Positions 6,881 to 54,308 of a DNA stretch of 56,339 bases are shown piece after piece (the first letter of the stretch is position 1; each line of letters starts with the position of its first letter). Made by a program: the position numbers and the translations under genes. The DNA lies in contig NZ_BLZO01000018.1 of assembly GCF_014132355.1 (NCBI RefSeq), positions 1 through 56,339 on the forward strand, read 5' to 3'. Source of the stretch: Okeania sp. KiyG1. GTDB taxonomy: Bacteria; Cyanobacteriota; Cyanobacteriia; Cyanobacteriales; Microcoleaceae. Under the pieces are notes generated by a model. The model saw nothing but the letters and a program-made list of their open reading frames with translations, had not been told where the DNA came from and searched no databases.

Positions 6881-9800
6881 TTAATTATTAATTACTAAAA
6901 CTCCTTCCATTTTACTCAACCAATCTATTAAACTTTCTAACTGTTTATCAGCACTTAAAACACCTAAACCACGAACTGTTACTTTACCCTTACTAAACAC
7001 AAAACGAGACTTTAAATGACCTGGTAATTTCTCCTTTAATAAATTCCATGCAGGTTCCTCCATTGGTGTTTCTAAAACAACGTGTTGTTTGCCTTCTACT
7101 TTAATTCGAGAAAAGCCTATTTTTTTGGCAATTTGTTTTAATTCCATCATCCTTAATAACTGTAAACCAGCTTTTGGGATACTACCGTAGCGATCGCTCC
7201 AATCAATTTCTATTTGACTCAACTCTTCCCGACTATTAGCAGCAGCAACTAACCGATATGCACTCATTTTTTGATCTAAATCTAGAATATAGTCTGCGGG
7301 AATAAATGCAGTCAAACTCAAATCAATTTGCGTATCATCCACCTGCGGAATTTCTTGACCTTTAACCTCACTAATTGCCTCTTGCAGCATTTCTGTATAC
7401 AGATCGAACCCAATAGTATTAACCTGACCAGACTGCTCTGCACCCAAAATATCCCCCGCTCCCCGAATCTCCAAATCTCGCATTGCTAACTGATATCCAG
7501 AACCCAACTGGGTAAACTCCTGAATTGCGCGCAACCGTTTTTGAGCATCATCTGTCAGCGCTATCCCACCGGAAGCAGTAGTCGGATAAAACAACCACGC
7601 ATGAGCTTGCACCCCCGCACGACCAACCCTTCCCCGCAACTGATACAACTGAGACAAGCCAAACTTTTGAGCATCCTCTATTAATATCGTGTTAACGCGA
7701 GGAATATCCAAACCAGACTCAATAATTGTGGTACAAACCAAAATATCAGCTTCACCAGCACTAAACGTGAGCATTATTGACTCCAATTCGTTAGCATCCA
7801 TTTGACCGTGACCAATATTTATTCTAGCTCCGGGAATCATTTCTCGTAACTTTCCCGCTAATTCCTCAATACCCTCAATGCGCGGCACAACATAAAATAC
7901 CTGTCCTCCTCTATTCAACTCTTGGCGAATTGCAGTGCGAGCAGTTTCCAGATCGTAAGGTGCAAGATGAGTTTTTATCGGACGACGCAATGGGGGTGGA
8001 GTCGCAATTAAACTCATTTCGCGAATTCCTGAAAGCGCCATATATAAAGTCCGAGGAATTGGCGTTGCAGTCAATGTCAGCACATCTACCTGAGCTTTGA
8101 GCGCCTTAATTTTTTCCTTCTGGTTAACGCCAAACCGTTGTTCCTCATCCACCACCAACAACCCTAACTCCCGAAAGTTAATTGTTTTGCTTAAAATAGA
8201 ATGGGTGCCAACAATAATATCCAACTCCCCAGTCGCCAACCTCCGCTGAATTTCTTTCTTTTCATTAGTAGTACGGAAGCGGTTGAGTAAACCTATTTCT
8301 ATAGGATAAGGTGCAAAACGTTCCTTGAGAGTATGATAATGTTGTTGAGTTAAAACTGTAGTCGGGGCGAGAAATGCTACTTGTTTGTTAGCAGTGACTG
8401 CTTTGAAAATTGCTCGAATAGCAACTTCTGTTTTACCAAAACCCACATCACCACAAACAAGACGATCCATTGCTCGCTCACTTTCCATATCCCGTTTCAC
8501 ATCTTGAGTTGCTTTCAACTGGTCGGGAGTAGGTTGATAGGGGAACGAATCTTCCATTTCTTCTTGCCATGGGGAGTCAGCAGGAAAACTATAACCTGTT
8601 TGTTTGGCGCGTTGAGCATAAAGTTTCAGCAGGTCAACGGCTAATTTTTTGATTGACTTACGGACTTTATTTTTGGTGCTTTCCCAAGTTTTACCCGTCA
8701 GTTTATTGAGCTGCGGTTTTTTCTTATCCGTACTTCTCAACCGCGACAGGGAACTAAGTTGGTCGGCGGCAACTCTGAGTAAACCGTCCGCATATTGAAT
8801 TACTAGATAGTCGCGGGTTTCATTATTCAGAGTCAGACTTTCTAATTTGACAAACTTGCCGATACCATGTTGACGGTGAACCACATAATCTCCGGGACGC
8901 AGTTTGTTGGGGTCTACTTGTTTGGAAGCTGCTTGACGACGTTTGCGAATATAGGTGGGAGTAGCGAGGGTGTGTTGTCCATAAAATTCTCGGTCGGTGA
9001 TGACAACTAACCGGAATGTGGGCAAAATAAATCCTTCTAATTCTGCTAAACCACTATATTTGAGAGCAACAGGGGTATGTTGGGTTTGCAGTCTGTCAAT
9101 GGCAGGGTAGTCGCGGGGGGTTGGGGATGAACTGAGCGGGACAGTCGTGTTCCTGGAGTAGGGATACGGAGCGCGATGGTTGAGCGGAAATGAGGAATAC
9201 GGAAAATTTCCGTTCCCTTTCCTGGCGCAGGTTTTCTGCCAGTTTTGCGTATTGGTGCGGCATTACTGGTAAGGGACGACTGGCGAGGTTGAGGGTGTAT
9301 TCCACTGAGCTGGTAATACTGCTATTGCTTTCTTTGACGAGTTCGGATAAATATAGTCTGGGAAATAATTCTACTTCTGCGAGGGAGTCGGCAAAAGTAC
9401 GATGAATTTTTGGTAATGGTTGGGATGTTTGGTCAGCGTTGAGTTGTTGCCAGTTTTCTTCTACCAGTTCAAACCAGCGATCGCCATGAGCAGCACATTG
9501 GTCAGCTTCGTCTATGGCGACTAGGGTATTTTCTGGCAAATAATCTAAAAGGGAGACAAATTTTGAGTCGGTTATTGACTCTAAGTTTCCCCACCCCCAC
9601 TGACTAAAGTTTGTGGGAGTCACTACTATTTTGGCAATTTTGTCAAGGGAGCGTTGAGTCGAGGGGTCAAATTCCCGAATTTTTTTCGAGTTCGTCACCA
9701 AACCATTCTAGGCGTACTGGTAATTCTGAGGCGACAGGAAATATATCTATAATATCCCCTCGGCGACTCCACTGACCCTCGGTTTCTACTAGGGGTACTC

Positions 9801-10314
9801 TTTCATATCCCATCTTGGCTAGTTTTTCATCGAAGGTTTTAGAATTGCTGCTAATACCTGGGTTGAGTTTTAGGCAGTATGGTTGAAATTGTTTAACTGT
9901 GGGTAGGTGGGGTTGGAGCGATCGCTCTGTTGCCACTACGGCCATTTTTGCTTTATTGCTTGCATTTTCTGGCGCATTCTCACTCAGCAAGTCTGCCAAT
10001 ACCTGCATTTGTCCCCAAATCATTTCTTCGGACTGGGAGGTTTCGTAGGGTGATGCTTCTGAGGTGGGATAAAAGTGTACTGTCGGCCATCCTATTGCTT
10101 CTAATTGTGCCGCCCACCGTCCCGCTTCTTCTAAGGTAGCAGTGACAATGAACAAATTTTGCTGTTGTTGTTGGGCCAGGGTAGATGCAACTAAGCCTTT
10201 GGGTAAACGGGGAGCGCCGTTTAGTTGTAGGCATTGGTGTTGTTGGAGTTTGTTTAGGAGTTCGGTTGTTAAGGGCGATCGCCCTAGTAGTTTAATAATA
10301 GAAGATAGTGTCAT
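6881..10314 (-). pseudogene. mfd: Transcription-repair coupling factor Mfd, two frameshifts
   Basis: Mfd removes stalled RNA polymerase and recruits UvrA. Three consecutive frames together give a protein of about 1143 residues, the normal length. 10314-9690 is the UvrB-like N-terminal part ([16 protein letters not shown] to EWFGDELEK). 9690-9116 continues it ([10 protein letters not shown] to FIPNP). 9116-6881 has the RNAP-binding domain ([14 protein letters not shown]), the helicase motifs ([44 protein letters not shown]) and the C-terminal TRCF domain. The shifts are an extra A in a 7-A run (9689-9695) and an extra C in a 6-C run (9113-9118); all codons around them are otherwise conserved. 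Sequencing error is as likely as real inactivation. The last residues (VINN) come from an ATTAATT repeat, and the start abuts a TCAGTTATCAG repeat, so no clear ribosome site is seen. Confidence 0.9.
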
Positions 10315-46272: not shown

Positions 46273-49130
46273 GCAGAAGGAAGAAGGAAGAGAAAAGAAG
46301 GAAGAAGGAAAAATATTGCTTTGTCTGAGTTTTAACAATCATTCCTTCCACTGCTATAACTACTCTATAACAGACAAAATAGCTCAAACTTAATTACTAA
46401 TAACTATTAGCACTATAAATCATTTCAAAACTCAGAGCTAAATATCTGACTTTCTCCAGATACAATCTTCTACTACCGAAGCGATCGCTTTATTGTTAAG
46501 TAGAAGGAAGAGAAAAGAAGGAAGAAGGAAAAATATTGCTTTGTCTGAGTTTTAATCATCATTCCTTCCACTGCTATAACTACTCTATAACAGACAAAAT
46601 AGCTCAAACTTAATTACTAATAACTATTAGCACTATAAATCATTTCAAAACTCAGAGTTAAATATCTGACTTTCTCCAGATACAATCTTCTACTACCGAA
46701 GCGATCGCTTGATTGTTAAGTAGAAGAAACAAGGAAGAAGAAGGAAGGAAAAATATTGCTTTGTCTGAGTTTTAATAATCATTCCTTCCACTGCTATAAC
46801 TATTCTATAACAGACAAAATAGCTAAAACTTAATTACTAATAACTATTAGCACTATAAATCATTTCAAAAATCAGAGCTAAATATCTGACTTTCTCCAGA
46901 TACAATCTTCTACTACAGAAGTTATAACTTTATTGTTGAGTAGAAGGAAGAGAAAAGAAGGAAGAAGGAAAATATTGCTTTGTCTGAGTTTTAATAATCA
47001 TTCCTTCCACTGCTATAACTACTCTATAACAGACAAAATAGCTCAAACCTAATTACTAATAGCTATTAGCACTATAAATCATTTCAAAACTCACAGCTAA
47101 ATATCTGACTTTCTCCAGATACAATCTTCTACTACCGAAGCAATCGCTTGATTGTGGAGTAGAAGGAAGAGAAAAGAAGGAAGAGGGAAAATATTGCTTT
47201 GTCTGAGTTTTAATAATCATTCCTTCCACTGCTATAACTATTCTATAACAGACAAAATAGCTAAAACCTAATTACTAATAACGATTAGCACTATAAATCA
47301 TTTCAAAACTCACAGCTAAATATCTGACTTTCTCCAGATACAATCTTCTACTACCGAAGTTATAACTTTATTGTTGAGTAGAAGGAAGAGAAAAGAAGGA
47401 AGAGGGAAAATATTGCTTTGTCTGAGTTTTAATAATCATTCCTTCCACTGCTATAACTATTCTATAACAGACAAAATAGCTAAAATTTAATTACTAATAA
47501 CTATTAGCACTATAAATCATTTCAAAACTCAGAGCTAAATATCTGACTTTCTCCAGATACAATCTTCTACTACCGAAGTTATAACTTTATTGTTGAGTAG
47601 AAGGAATAGAAAAGAAGGAAGAAGGAAAAATATTGCTTTGTCTGAGTTTTAATAATCATTCCTTCCACTGCTATAACTATTCTATAACAGACAAAATAGC
47701 TAAAATCTAATTACTAATAACTATTAGCACTATAAATCATTTCAAAACTCAGAGCTAAATATCTGACTTTCTCCAGATACAATCTTCTACTACCGAAGTT
47801 ATAACTTTATTGTTGAGTAGAAGGAAGAGAAAAGAAGGAAGAGGGAAAATATTGCTTTGTCTGAGTTTTAATAATCATTCCTTCCACTGCTATAACTATT
47901 CTATAACAGACAAAATAGCTAAAATTTAATTACTAATAACTATTAGCACTATAAATCATTTCAAAACTCAGAGCTAAATATCTGACTTTCTCCAGATACA
48001 ATCTTCTACTACCGAAGTTATAACTTTATTGTTGAGTAGAAGGAAGAGAAAAGAAGGAAGAGGGAAAATATTGCTTTGTCTGAGTTTTAATAATCATTCC
48101 TTCCACTGCTATAACTATTCTATAACAGACAAAATAGCTAAAATTTAATTACTAATAACTATTAGCACTATAAATCATTTCAAAACTCAGAGCTAAATAT
48201 CTGACTTTCTCCAGATACAATCTTCTACTACCGAAGTTATAACTTTATTGTTGAGTAGAAGGAATAGAAAAGAAGGAAGAAGGAAAAATATTGCTTTGTC
48301 TGAGTTTTAATAATCATTCCTTCCACTGCTATAACTATTCTATAACAGACAAAATAGCTAAAATCTAATTACTAATAACTATTAGCACTATAAATCATTT
48401 CAAAACTCAGAGTTAAATATCTGACTTTCTCCAGATACAATCTTCTACTACCGAAGCGATCGCTTTATTGTTGAGTAGAAGAAACAAGGAAGAAGAAGGA
48501 AGGAAAAATATTGCTTTGTCTGAGTTTTAATCATCATTCCTTCCACTGCTATAACTATTCTATAACAGACAAAATAGCTAAAATCTAATTACTAATAACT
48601 ATTAGCACTATAAATCATTTCAAAACTCAGAGTTAAATATCTGACTTTCTCCAGATACAATCTTCTACTACCGAAGCGATCGCTTGATTGTTAAGTAGAA
48701 GGAATAGAAAAGAAGGAAGAAGGAAAAATATTGCTTTGTCTGAGTTTTAATCATCATTCCTTCCACTGCTATAACTACTCTATAACAGACAAAATAGCTC
48801 AAACTTAATTACTAATAAATATTAGCTCCATAAATTATTTCAAAACTCACAGCTAAATATCTGACTTTCTCCAGATACAATCTTCTACTACAGAAGTTAT
48901 AACTTTATTGTTGAGTAGAAGGAATAGAAAAGAAGGAAGAAGGAAAAATATTGCTTTGTCTGAGTTTTAATCATCATTCCTTCCACTGCTATAACTACTC
49001 TATAACAGACAAAATAGCTCAAACCTAATTACTAATAACTATTAGCACTATAAATCATTTCAAAACTCAGAGCTAAATATCTGACTTTCTCCAGATACAA
49101 TCTTCTACTACCGAAGTTATAACTTTTATG
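46273..49130. repeat. Tandem array, thirteen copies of a 219-220-bp unit
   Basis: The marker CTGACTTTCTCCAGATACAA recurs at 46446, 46666, 46886, 47105, 47324, 47543, 47763, 47982, 48201, 48421, 48641, 48861 and 49081. Each unit also has a GAAGGAAGAGAAAAGAAGG run, TGCTTTGTCTGAGTTTTAA, CTATAACAGACAAAATAGCT and ACTATTAGCACTATAAATC. The last copy is the genuine 3' end of the NTPase gene (49073-52229), so every unit repeats its final codons and stop plus about 170 bases of downstream sequence. The octamer after CTACCGAA is GCGATCGC in units 1, 2, 10 and 11, GCAATCGC in unit 4 and GTTATAAC in the others. Confidence 0.92.
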
Positions 49131-52100
49131 CCTTCTTTTTCAGAAGTATGGTAATTTTCAGGTATATCAGTATTATATGTTTCCACAGGTTGAATATTTA
49201 GAGTAAATTTACCCTTGATAATTCCCCTATATCTGCTAATAAATTCACCTAACCAAACCTCTCCTTCAGTCTGAAAATTTCCTTGAATTTGATTACCAAC
49301 TTTCTTTAAAGTTCCTTGAGTGATAAAGTTAGTTTCAATAATTGCATTAAAAGGAAGAACAGAAAGTGTATCCTTTCCTTGATTACGATTGCTTATAATT
49401 TTTTTGACGACAAAATTCACAGTTTTATTTTCACCAAGGGGTTCAAACAAATATATTTCCACTGATCTGCCACTAATTTGCAGTATCATGTGACGATTAG
49501 ATGGATTGTAACTTCCAATTACGCCAGATTTCTCCTTATCAACAGGAACTAACCGAGGATACTCACTGTAGGTTATTTTGCCACTACCATCAGTTATTTG
49601 GAAATAATTACTAATAGTTTGAGTAGGTTTTTATTAAGATTTTCCAAAGATTGTTGTAAATCTAAAATAGTTTTATTTTCACATTTACTTCTCTCTGGAT
49701 TAGGAAATGTAGAATCTTTCATAACCTCTTCAAGATGTTGCTGTGCATCAATAGGTCCATAAAAAATTAAACTGCTCAAACTAGCTTTATTTAATAGTTC
49801 ACACTCATCAGCTTTGCGATTATCTTCTTTGCCAAACCATCCACATTTTTTATCCGTATATTGACGCCATAAATCTTCAATTTTCAGTAAAATTTTTTTT
49901 GGCATTCTCCTAGCTTCTTCTTCATTACCTATAGAACCACTTTTATTAATATCTGCTCCTAAATCAACTATGAGAATTTTATATGTTTCTCGTAATGCTC
50001 CTTCAGTGAACTGCTCTTCAAAATCGCTAGGTCTCTTATCAGCTTTTTTATATCCTATATATTTTTTCTCTTTTTTCAGATCTGCTTTTTTCAGGTATTC
50101 TTCCAGTCTTGGTATGCGATATTTGAGAATTATTTCAGTTAATGAATTACTAGCTCTTTCTTTGATTTTTATAATTTCAATTAAAAGCTTTTCTTCTTTA
50201 GAGTATGTAAAAATATTTATCAATTTACACTGTATAAAATATTTAGTTAAATCAGTCACCATATCATCAGAAAACTCTCTGATATCTTGATATTGATTTT
50301 CACATTGAAGAATATGTTTATATTTACTAGGATTATCTGCTAGAGAATCTTTAATTCGTTTTTGAGCTAAATTGATGAAGTTTAGTACATTTTTGTAATC
50401 AGATATAGCACTCTCTATATTTTTGTTTCTTTGATTTTTATCTTTTGCTGCTTCTATCAGCTTTTTATCACCTTTTTCTATCATCTTAGGTAATAATTTA
50501 ATTGTTTCAGATTCAAACTCACCTCTATTAATATTTATAATTGATTGAAGCAGTATTCCTTGTTGTTTTCCTTGCCAAAATAACCATCCTAATACTCCTG
50601 CTAATAAACTTAGAATAGTAGCTATAACTAATGTGAGCAAAAATTTATTTTTTGTTCTCTCTTTCTCTAGGGATTCTTTAGCCAATTCTTTCTCTGTTAT
50701 TTCAAGTTTTAATTCTTTTTGTCTCTTTTCCTCTTCTTCATTCTCTAATTGTTTTTTTCGCTCATCACTTGCTTGAATAAACTTCTTAGTTTCTTCATCG
50801 AAACTACTAAATTCCTCTTCATTAATCAATCTATGAAATTTTTCCAGATTGTATCCCACCCATAATTCCTTTTCCACGTTATGATTATTTTCCTCTTTTA
50901 ATCTTTGCCACTGTTGAACATCACTAAACAATCTATTTCTAAGAATAATAATTTCTTCTTTGTCGTTAATTAACTTTTGAAGAACTTGCCAAGAGCGGAG
51001 CAACTGTTCATGGGCAACTTCAACAGTTGACCTCCTATATCTTCCACTCACTAATAGCCGATTATCAATTAGTTTTTCTAAAACTTTATTGATAGTTTCA
51101 TTATTTCTAAATTGAGACCGATCTACCCTTCTACTAATTGGCTCTTTAACCTTCAAATCTATTAATTCAATAAAAATTTTTTCGGCAGTTTTTCTTTCTT
51201 CATCATTCAATAATTCTGAATTGTATATTTTATTGGCTTGCTTTTGTAAAGCACCAGAAACTCCACCAATCTTTCGATAAGTTTCACGATTTAAAACTCG
51301 ATTATTTTCAGATGGTTTGTCTTCTCTCCAAAGCAAATCTAAAGTGTATTGTAATAAAGGAAGAGAACCTGCTTGGTGATAAAAATCATGAATAATTGTC
51401 TCAACCAGACCCTTTTCAAAAGTTACTCCATTTCTAGCAGCAGGTTCAGCGATCGCTAATCTCAATTCTATTTCGGTCATTTCTCTAGTGAACCGAATCT
51501 TCTGTTTTTCTACTTCATTAGTTAAATCAGCATATTGTTGAAGCTCGTCTAAAAAATCAGAGCGCATAGCAAGAATTAGCTTAATAGATTCATCCTGTTG
51601 CTGAACTAAAGGAATCAGATTAGCAATAAATTTATCTCTTTCCAACTTAGGTGTTCTGGCAAATAATTCTTCAAACTGATCGATAAAAATAATCCATTTG
51701 AATGACTCTTCCTGACAACTTTTAATAACATCAATTAGAGTCAAATTATTTGGCGAATTAAAAAAATTAGACGCTTTATTCTGATATTTTTGGGAAAATT
51801 TTCAGAGAAAGATGTAAAAGGATTATTATCAGGGACAAAAATTATTGTTACTAGCTGAGATGTTCCCCATTGATCTGATAAATAAGGAATTAACCCAGCT
51901 TGAACTAAGGAAGATTTACCACTACCCGAAGCTCCTAATAGTAAAAGTAAATTATTGTTTTTTAAGTCATTACTTAATTTAATAATCCACTTTTCTCGAC
52001 CAAAAAATTTGTCTTTATCTCCAGGTTCAAATTTATTAAGTGACAAGTAAGGAGAACCTGGTTTTAAATTTCGACTATGAATTTCAGCTTCGGAATGTTG

Positions 52101-52229
52101 GGCGATGATATATTGATTGACAACTCCTCCTTTAATATCACCAATAATACCTTTAACATCACCATCACCAATAATACCTTTAACATCACCACCAATATCA
52201 TTTATATAAGCAGAACTTGGCTCGCTCAT
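49073..52229 (-). pseudogene. nSTAND1-type NTPase with amyloid-like N-terminal motif, two frameshifts
   Basis: Three frames join into about 1050 residues. N-terminus: a repeat-rich motif GGDVKGIIGDGDVKGIIGD (13-31). Then FFGREKWI, Walker A GASGSGKSS (99-107) and, after a shift in a 5-A run (51787-51791), Walker B IIFIDQFEELF, MRSDFLDELQQ, AGSLPLLQYTLDLLWR and VEVAHEQLLRSW, all typical of nSTAND1 NTPases. A coiled coil and one transmembrane helix (FLLTLVIATILSLLAGVLGW) follow. The region behind is not WD40 but an unknown helical part. After another shift in a 5-A run (49628-49632) comes a beta-rich end (YFQITDGSGKITYSEYPR, HMILQISGRSVEIYLFEP). Both shifts lack one A and may be sequencing errors. 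It would act as sensor/oligomeriser signalling to the product of the preceding gene (inference). Confidence 0.8.
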
Positions 52230-52251
52230 ATTTTTCTCCAGTTATTACGAA

Positions 52252-52653
52252 CTAAAAAGTCATATTAATTTGTCCACCACTAACATCTCCAATAACACCC
52301 CCCTTAATATTAGTCTTATCTCCTATAGAACCCTTTACATCCCCAGAAACCTTAATATTTAAGCCTGTTGCTGCTTCTTCTGATTTTAACTTTTCTAGTA
52401 ACTCCTCAGCTTTCTTGATCACTTCTTCGTCTTTATCAATACCCCCTTCAATTAATTTCTCTTTCAAGGGTTCTTGATAAGTTTTAGGGTTTTTCTCGTG
52501 TTCTTCTAAAATCATATTTGCTAATGAGTTGTCTGCAAATTTACGCTTAATTAATGCCTTTAAGTTCTGATAAATATCTTTAACTAAACTACCAGCAGTC
52601 GCTTCACCAGCGCCAGTAACTAGAGCGGTAAGAATCAAAGAAATAGGTTCCAT
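52252..52653 (-). CDS. Bell-like effector candidate with C-terminal amyloid-like motif
   Basis: This 133-residue protein starts MEPISLILTALVTGAGEATA, a hydrophobic first helix, followed by SLVKDIYQNLKALIKRKFAD and acidic helices (EEVIKKAEELLEKLKSEE). This pattern fits the Bell domain, the bacterial counterpart of fungal HeLo/HELL membrane-damaging domains. The C-terminal 35 residues (SGDVKGSIGDKTNIKGGVIG, then DVSGGQINMTF) match the motif at the N-terminus of the NTPase encoded 22 bases downstream. In known systems such pairs signal by amyloid templating: the activated NTPase nucleates the effector, which then damages the membrane. Assignment is from pattern memory, not a search. Alternative: an unrelated beta-solenoid repeat protein. 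Confidence 0.68.
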   Translation of the reverse strand: MEPISLILTALVTGAGEATAGSLVKDIYQNLKALIKRKFADNSLANMILEEHEKNPKTYQEPLKEKLIEGGIDKDEEVIKKAEELLEKLKSEEAATGLNIKVSGDVKGSIGDKTNIKGGVIGDVSGGQINMTF

Positions 52654-52873
52654 AAACTTAAACTTTTCTCAAATTATGTACGTCTTTATTATTATATCAA
52701 CATTCAAAATTAAGCAGCAACTGCCACTCTATTTGACATACTCCCCGGCTATCAGGCACGGGGATTCTCACGAAAAGTGATTCTTTGCTCATCGACACAA
52801 CTTACTAAATTAAGTTACCCATCATTAGCAGAGGCTGTTATCTCCCAAAGCGTTCCCTATTACTAGGAGGTTC

Positions 52874-52901
52874 CTGAATGCCCTGCCTTCGGCGCGCCGC
52901 T
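52874..52901. repeat. GCGCGCC palindromic repeat, copy 1
   Basis: GCCTTCGGCGCGCCGCTCCG followed by CGTCTAC, translated in the tnpB frame as VDAERRAEGR. An identical copy is at 53222-53248. Confidence 0.8.
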
Positions 52902-53221
52902 CCGCGTCTACAGTACCTTGATTCCACTCAATACCTATTATTTCTAATCCACGATTCAAGATGTTTCGTGCTGCGTTAGTATCACGACATATTTCAACAT
53001 GACAACTAGGGCAAACATGAGTACGAGTTGACAAAGTTTTCTTGACTCTATGCCCAAAATTAGAACAATCTTGAGAAGTAAATTTGGGATTTACTGAAAC
53101 AACTGCTTTATCCCAAATTTTTCCATAGTATTCCAACCATTGAGTGAACTGATACCACGATGCGTCAGATATTGACTTTGCCAAATGATGGTTTTTGACC
53201 ATGTTTTGTATCTTCAGGTCT

Positions 53222-53248
53222 GCCTTCGGCGCGCCGCTCCGCGTCTAC
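53222..53248. repeat. GCGCGCC palindromic repeat, copy 2
   Basis: The same sequence as 52874-52901, inserted between VVVY and the codons for DLKIQNMVK of tnpB. It shifts the frame there. Confidence 0.8.
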
Positions 53249-54308
53249 ATAGACTACAACATCGTTAGATGCTACTACGCACCGGGCTTGTTTAATGCTC
53301 CAGTCTTTACGCTGCCTACTTACCTTCAAGTGACATAACCCTAGTCTCTTTCTGGCTTTATGGTAATTGTTTGATTGAGGTTTCTTGCCTTTAACAAACT
53401 TCTTGCTTAATTGTCGTTGCCGACGCTTTAATTTTTTCTCTGATTTTCTCAGATATTGAGGATAAACAACTGCATTATCTTTTTGGTCTTTGTAGAAATA
53501 TTTCAATCCTAAATCAATGCCTATAAAATTACCAGTATAATTTCCTGGTTCTTCTCTATTAGCATCTATACAAAACTGACAATAATAACCGTCTGCACGT
53601 CTAACTATTCTCACTCGATTAATTTTTGACCTAAACAAATCCTCTCTTGTTTCTGAGTTACAATACAGAGAAAATTTGCCAGATTTAAACTTATCAGTAA
53701 AAGTTATAAACATACAATCATCTGATAATTTCCAACCAGACTGTTTATATTCTACAGACCGACAATGCTTTTTGAATTTAGGATATCCTCTCTTGGTGCG
53801 CGTTCCCTTGCGACTATCGTCGTCGCGGGGTCGCACCGCTTTCTTTTGGCTCCTTCAAATGCAGCGACGATAAAAGTTACTAATCGAAGTCCAAGCTACT
53901 TCTACTGAGGCTTGTCTAGCTGATGAATTTAATTTGTTTGCAAAAGCAAATTCACTAGCTAATTCTTTACTCAGTTTGTATAAACGCGACTTATCTACTC
54001 CTTGGTTGTCTATCCAGTATCTGACAGCTTTATTTCTAATAAACTGTGCTGTTATGATAGCTTCATCCAAGGATTTATATTGATTTGATGTTCCGTTTAA
54101 TAACTTAGCCTCTCTTACTAACATGGTGATTTTTTGTTTCTATGCTATTATTTTAGCAGATATTTTTTCCGATCAAACAATTATTAAAAAAATATTGATG
54201 CAGAAAAGTCGCTCGCTTATGGGCGAGGCTTTAAACCAATTTTTTCGGTAAATCAAGCATATCTACTCAGGCTAAGTATTGATTTTGAAAGAAAAATTAA
54301 CTTTTATA

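Follow-up and report, generated by a model that had tools for sequence, protein, structure and literature searches.

A two-gene effector/receptor locus of Okeania with paired C- and N-terminal motifs: a candidate variant of bacterial amyloid NLR signalling

Dyrka et al. reportedly described, in 2020, the motifs BASS1 to BASS10 of bacterial amyloid signalling together with their Bell effectors. Do two adjacent genes of the filamentous marine cyanobacterium Okeania sp. KiyG1, encoding a small protein and an nSTAND1 NTPase, form a pair of this type? A sequence-only reading of the window (the whole stretch of 56,339 nucleotides analysed here) had placed an effector and an NTPase at 49073..52653. 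The genes are there, but the NTPase is broken by two frameshifts and is not one open frame (Table 1). Both genes are on the minus strand, and 22 bp separate the effector from the receptor ATG at 52229.

Table 1. Positions of the effector, the receptor and their parts in the window
Feature	Position	Strand	Remark
Effector, 133 aa	52252..52653	(-)	Bell-like domain (residues 1 to ~97) and C-terminal motif
Effector C-terminal amyloid-like motif	52255..52359	(-)	Units GDVKGSIGD and IKGGVIGD, SGGQIN tail
Receptor N-terminal motif	52104..52205	(-)	Two identical GDVKGIIGD units; exact 27-bp tandem duplication 52137-52190
Receptor piece 1: motif and start of nSTAND1 (PF20703, E = 8.9e-24)	51741..52229	(-)	Walker A at 51909-51935; ends at first frameshift
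Receptor piece 2: remaining nSTAND1 (PF20703, E = 1.1e-71), membrane segment, sensor	49594..51744	(-)	
Predicted membrane-spanning segment of receptor	50587..50643	(-)	Kyte-Doolittle hydropathy
Non-WD40 sensor region common to CHAT-/caspase-fused nSTAND1 proteins	49681..50640	(-)	
EF-hand-like loop DINKSGSIGNEE	49918-49953	(-)	Inside sensor region
Two cysteines	within 49792-49851	(-)	Invariant in 8 aligned sensor sequences
Third open stretch, beyond second frameshift	49073..49615	(-)	Probable C-terminal end of receptor

The Gly-rich motif SGDVKGSIGDKTNIKGGVIGDVSGG closes the 133-residue effector (residues ~99 to 133). The receptor opens with GGDVKGIIGDGDVKGIIGDIKGG, its own motif occupying residues ~13 to 38, ahead of the Walker A GASGSGKSS (residues 99 to 107). 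The alignment of the effector tail with the receptor N-terminus scored 79, against a mean of 27.7 and a maximum of 62 in 20,000 shuffles of the N-terminus, which rules out a chance likeness of two Gly-rich ends. The claim that one motif stands at the effector C-terminus and, before the P-loop, at the NTPase N-terminus was thus confirmed for the Okeania window, as far as sequence can tell. When the effector was used as a query against its own 11-Mb genome, the receptor N-terminus was the only second match (E = 0.001, in an alignment that begins upstream of the receptor ATG and crosses two TAA). A profile of the motif gave its next match beyond the pair at E = 4, ruling out a motif widespread in the genome. 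Nor is the motif a piece of a conserved domain, since no significant Pfam match covers it in either partner, and the matches that reach into the effector motif are at chance level (e.g., E = 0.068). RHIM-like motifs have the core pattern [VI]Q[VILMC]G; this strict core is absent from both window motifs, as is the spacing QxG....Q.

The tandem duplication ascribed to the NTPase is present but not special to it, both partners carrying two units. Only in the receptor is the duplication exact in the DNA itself (two copies of 27 bp), and the second copy in Okeania sp. SIO2B3 differs slightly. Because the units in the window are identical in DNA, the duplication in the receptor is either recent or homogenised.

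The motif pair was also expected to recur in homologous loci, and it does so in Okeania SIO2B3, in Microcystis (loci L126, L128, L131 and L139) and in Symploca (L129), the receptor side in SIO2B3 being cut off near the end of the contig. Effector and receptor stand in the same order in all three, with a small gene between them in Microcystis. A profile of the GDVKG motif found 11 matches in 6 of 386 cyanobacterial genomes; since it was built from the same families, the finding lies in the lack of matches in all other genomes. Okeania and four Microcystis, five genomes in all, have exactly two matches each, one at the end of the effector and the other at the start of the receptor; the sixth (G161) holds a single match, a relic. 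The numbers of motif units in effector and receptor are 2/2 in Okeania, 2/2 in Microcystis and 1/1 in Symploca, a covariation that rests on three lineages, too few for a test. Repeats on the Bell side are known from another motif, BASS4, in which they are frequent (PMC8086366).

The Microcystis loci show two further features. In Microcystis viridis (L075/L150), the effector tail is interrupted before the motif and the receptor start is intact; because of this interruption, the effector-side match lies outside the effector frame, downstream in a separate frame of 42 aa. The third small gene of L126, L128, L131 and L139 encodes a protein of 131 aa in which coiled-coil-like segments (GVEKRLEEKID) recur and whose C-terminal end is a membrane helix (computed for L131).

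To what extent does the motif of an effector fit its own receptor? The set comprised 94 effector/neighbour pairs. In 81 of these, a Walker A lies within the first 520 residues of the receptor, and 48 are non-redundant. The mean own-partner score of these 48 was 51.4, against 24.1 ± 1.5 when partners were re-dealt, and none of 20,000 re-deals scored as high; a first run with 32 pairs had given 45.0 and 23.7, respectively. Scores of at least 40 were reached by 34 pairs. The other 14 showed no match and belong mostly, as judged by eye, to a divergent EPLT-type effector subgroup with other P-loop neighbours; in some of them, the start may have been misplaced or the neighbour may be the wrong gene. 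A dozen or so classes of motif could be distinguished by eye, including YAATSGTGNA, ISGGxVQG, GDxxFxPVQ, EVKGAQVGD and GDVxGVAG.

A search of 190 comparisons between NTPases at least 50% identical returned, as the most striking among the matches listed, two cases of near-identical NTPases with different motifs. Over 268 aa, the NTPases of Microcystis L154 and L128 share 96% identity, and their motifs score 100 with own partners and 34.5 when crossed; the NTPases of L079 and L086, whose genomes belong to the same genus, share 98% identity, and the motif scores are 60.5 and 18.5. Each motif fits its own effector, and the two cases are natural module swaps. In a tree of 23 chosen receptors, the NTPases of the window and of Symploca L129 were sisters (97/94), the Microcystis GDVKG receptors shared a clade with GDVFGVAG receptors (95/98), and L154 was placed among the Microcystis GDVKG receptors. 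The GDxFxPVQ motif appeared on two distant clades, so that motif classes are not clades. The swaps and the tree therefore indicate that motif and effector move together, independently of the NTPase.

The effector belongs to a broader family. A profile search with its N-terminal domain found relatives in 38 of 386 cyanobacterial genomes (its own included), and 51 loci, 44 of them cyanobacterial, came from a pattern scan covering 84,980 species. The remaining seven were from two Desulfobulbaceae, one cable bacterium, one Rhodospirillales MAG and three actinobacteria. In the class of a Streptosporangiaceae MAG, 7 of 197 sampled genomes (that MAG included) matched the family. The family profile collects actinobacterial, Desulfobulbaceae and cable-bacterial members, several of which adjoin a gene starting with the same motif (e.g., L159, L161, L163, L201, L204, L207 and L212). 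The cable-bacterial pair of Candidatus Electronema aureum (L207) carries GVIGDNANVKDGIHFG and GIIGKKARVKGGIHF, which resemble, by eye only, the second half of the window effector motif. Another distant family member, of 168 aa, occurs in two identical copies near the starts of contigs 7 and 37 of G000 (L062 and L063), one of which adjoins a P-loop ATPase (by eye).

Is this family of the Bell kind? The hydrophobic N-terminus noted in the effector is present but weak (best 19-residue mean, 1.46). The window effector matched PF20701 (HetE-N) with 20.6 bits, under the cut-off of 25; with E ≤ 0.01 as the limit, this domain was found in 17 of the 44 family members (best 2e-4) and, with E ≤ 1, in 14 of the 25 of the broader effector set (best 3.2e-21). 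PF12721 (RHIM) matched one member in 44 (E = 0.0054). RHIM-like motifs spaced QxG....Q close the effectors of L204 (Actinoplanes) and L212 (from the class of the Streptosporangiaceae MAG), and are also seen in L145 and L197. In L204 and L212, the next ORF repeats the motif, with the spacing lightly varied in L212. The QxG....Q spacing is the one that separates Q113 and Q120 of a BASS3 protein, at which proline mutations abolish foci (PMC9815663). Because members carry RHIM-like motifs with BASS3-like spacing, these relatives would tie the family, by motif and family profile, to the Bell/BASS kind. Searches for the effector in other collections found no PDB sequence match at E < 0.1 with its profile and nothing useful in PADLOC (OloA, E = 0.016) or PHROGs; NCBIfam GapS6a was not among the matches of the window effector and was weak in 4 of 25 family members (best E = 1.8e-4).

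The pairing, the swaps and the matched repeat numbers would be equally expected of any homotypic beta-interaction, including a non-amyloid adapter, such as a small beta-solenoid or a strand-swapped patch, that docks one-to-one with no self-propagating templating. We consider such an adapter improbable: the RHIM-like motifs of the effector family resemble BASS3, for which fibrils and foci have been reported (PMC7885112, PMC9815663), and short Gly-rich tails with no significant domain match suit an amyloid better than a folded adapter.

On the receptor side, the end of the protein had been read as non-WD40 with a membrane helix. The first part was borne out, as Pfam gave no WD40 or TPR match at E ≤ 1, and a WD40 receptor was rejected. 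The helix is found by hydropathy but is no special feature, being present in 22 of the 39 sufficiently long receptors. After it comes a sensor region of ~260 positions that aligns with the sensors of L129, L113, L108 to L112 and L114, most of the aligned sequences having a DxNxDG-type loop. A profile of the sensor matched at full length in 8 of 386 genomes, seven of which were used to build it, and weakly in five more. Weak GUN4 matches over the sensor in 5 of 8 proteins (E from 3.8e-6 to 0.0076, all below the cut-off) suggest that it is, at most, distantly akin to GUN4. The block of nSTAND1, membrane segment and sensor is fused to CHAT in L108, L110 and L112 and to caspase C14 in L109 and L114, so that the motif of the Okeania receptor occupies the place held elsewhere by an integrated killer domain. 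In L113, the block has a different motif-like N-terminus, with no Bell-like ORF immediately upstream. The Symploca receptor (L129) is intact, with 781 aa, and lies in a row with its effector and a companion gene of 502 aa. Companions with a hydrophobic N-terminus accompany 6 of 6 receptors (L129, L113, L108, L109, L110 and L112); none was found directly downstream of L114, and no secreted companion was found alongside the window receptor, where a 220-bp tandem array stands instead. Of the eight receptors with the sensor, five have a charge bias at the membrane segment that fits an outward-facing sensor; the window receptor, L129 and L108 do not. We infer that the sensor may be extracytoplasmic; the domain appears rare, membrane-linked and Cys/EF-hand-like, perhaps facing outward. 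Its arrangement was not found described in the accessible portions of the literature searched.

A sensor that may face outward, an EF-hand-like loop and the secreted-looking companions of relatives would fit ion or envelope sensing, and a link to phage was not found at the Okeania locus. The pair could then be a regulatory signalosome, developmental or stress-related, rather than a killing or phage-defence module. This seems rather unlikely to us, as caspase or CHAT domains are found in relatives that share this sensor, and the effector is distributed as an accessory conflict gene might be, patchily (in one of the five further Okeania genomes).

The two frameshifts of the receptor lie near 51741-51790 and near 49620, with a short A-run beside each. 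The locus might accordingly be a decaying remnant, with the effector kept and the receptor dead. The receptor homology in SIO2B3, which stops just past the motif, 133 bases from the contig end, would agree with decay, as would the interrupted effector tail of M. viridis (L150) and the single-match relic of G161. Upstream of the pair are two SGNH-like genes, both whole in SIO2B3, and the truncation of one of them in the window, a rearrangement rather than an indel, points the same way. Against decay, the transcription-repair coupling factor gene of the window (6881-10314) is split into three ORFs in different frames and the other SGNH-like gene, which runs off the contig, is read in two, so that assembly indels are likely; rpoB, the other housekeeping gene examined, is whole. 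Moreover, the effector, 97% identical to that of SIO2B3 (L115), has no amino-acid change in residues 1 to 117, all four changes falling in the last 16 residues, at the motif end. Assembly errors are thus likelier than true decay, and we hold a dead receptor to be possible but doubtful. No relatives of the third open stretch were found among the fetched loci.

The module is flanked on both sides by other elements. Directly downstream of the receptor, at 46282-49126, a 220-bp unit is repeated 13 times in tandem (95% matches), the final copy reaching into the end of the third receptor stretch. An insertion of 1,515 bp (52733-54247), with fragments of a transposon-type ORF (TnpB-like, by eye), is found 79 bp upstream of where the effector starts, at a site that is empty in SIO2B3.

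How does the Okeania pair compare with known systems? The fungal HET-s/NWD2, sigma and PP systems are amyloid NLR signalosomes, and the likeness to them is one of logic: the N-terminal motif of an NLR templates the motif that ends a membrane-targeting killer. The CHAT- and caspase-nSTAND1 fusions (L108, L109, L110, L112 and L114) have the same nSTAND1, membrane segment and C-terminal sensor, but there the output domain is fused directly, while in Okeania it would be recruited by the motif. EADs are folded domains, unlike the common part of the Okeania proteins, a repeat motif of ~35 residues. The likeness to EAD conflict systems and HetE-N (PF20701) lies in an adapter carried by both receptor and effector, and the effector family overlaps HetE-N (PMC8195603). 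The analogy itself is based on bacterial amyloid signalling with Bell effectors (PMC7889193, PMC8086366, PMC9815663), with which the pair has in common adjacent genes, a motif at the effector C-terminus and the STAND receptor N-terminus, a small effector with a hydrophobic N-terminus, and occurrence in multicellular bacteria. It differs in a GDVKG/IGD motif without the RHIM-like core, in a receptor end that is not WD40, and in a unit number that follows in both partners. Further motif pairs escape the ten BASS profiles (PMC8086366). The GDVKG/IGD class and its host were not found in the accessible portions of the literature searched, and the supplement of the primary BASS paper may contain them. 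The Okeania module is, on these comparisons, a putative variant of bacterial amyloid NLR signalling.

The proposal of an amyloid-signalling effector/NLR pair is supported, at the sequence level, by the paired motifs, the relatives of the family and the co-occurrence of the motif pair, and a two-gene bacterial amyloid NLR signalling module is, in our judgement, a quite probable explanation of the whole locus. What the sequences themselves establish are the matching motifs and their preference for own partners, the effector family, the nSTAND1 domain, the membrane segment and the sensor module. By likeness to BASS systems (PMC7889193) and fungal signalosomes, the receptor would sit in the membrane with its nSTAND1 NTPase and N-terminal motif in the cytoplasm and its Cys/EF-hand-like sensor probably in the periplasm. 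Once the sensor is triggered, possibly by a phage, the NTPase would oligomerise and gather many N-terminal motifs, which may fold into a cross-beta stack with two rungs per molecule. With this stack as template, the motif at the C-terminus of the Bell-like effector would adopt that fold too, and the hydrophobic N-terminal helix of the clustered effector could then attack the membrane, the death of the cell protecting the filament. A more specific version, a transmembrane, outward-sensing amyloid NLR whose periplasmic sensor fires the Bell killer through a cytoplasmic two-rung seed, is offered as a tentative and less likely reading; in it, the rung number co-inherited by both partners would mean that partner choice is set by motif sequence and rung count together.

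The natural swaps are a ready-made test of whether a motif of 20 to 35 residues suffices on its own to decide which partner is chosen in bacterial NLR signalling, and with versions of one and of two units, the number of rungs in a signalling amyloid becomes open to experiment. The sensor common to CHAT, caspase and motif receptors suggests how direct fusions and amyloid relays interchange in evolution. It also gives a hint of outward sensing, an uncommon property, if real, among NLR-like proteins.
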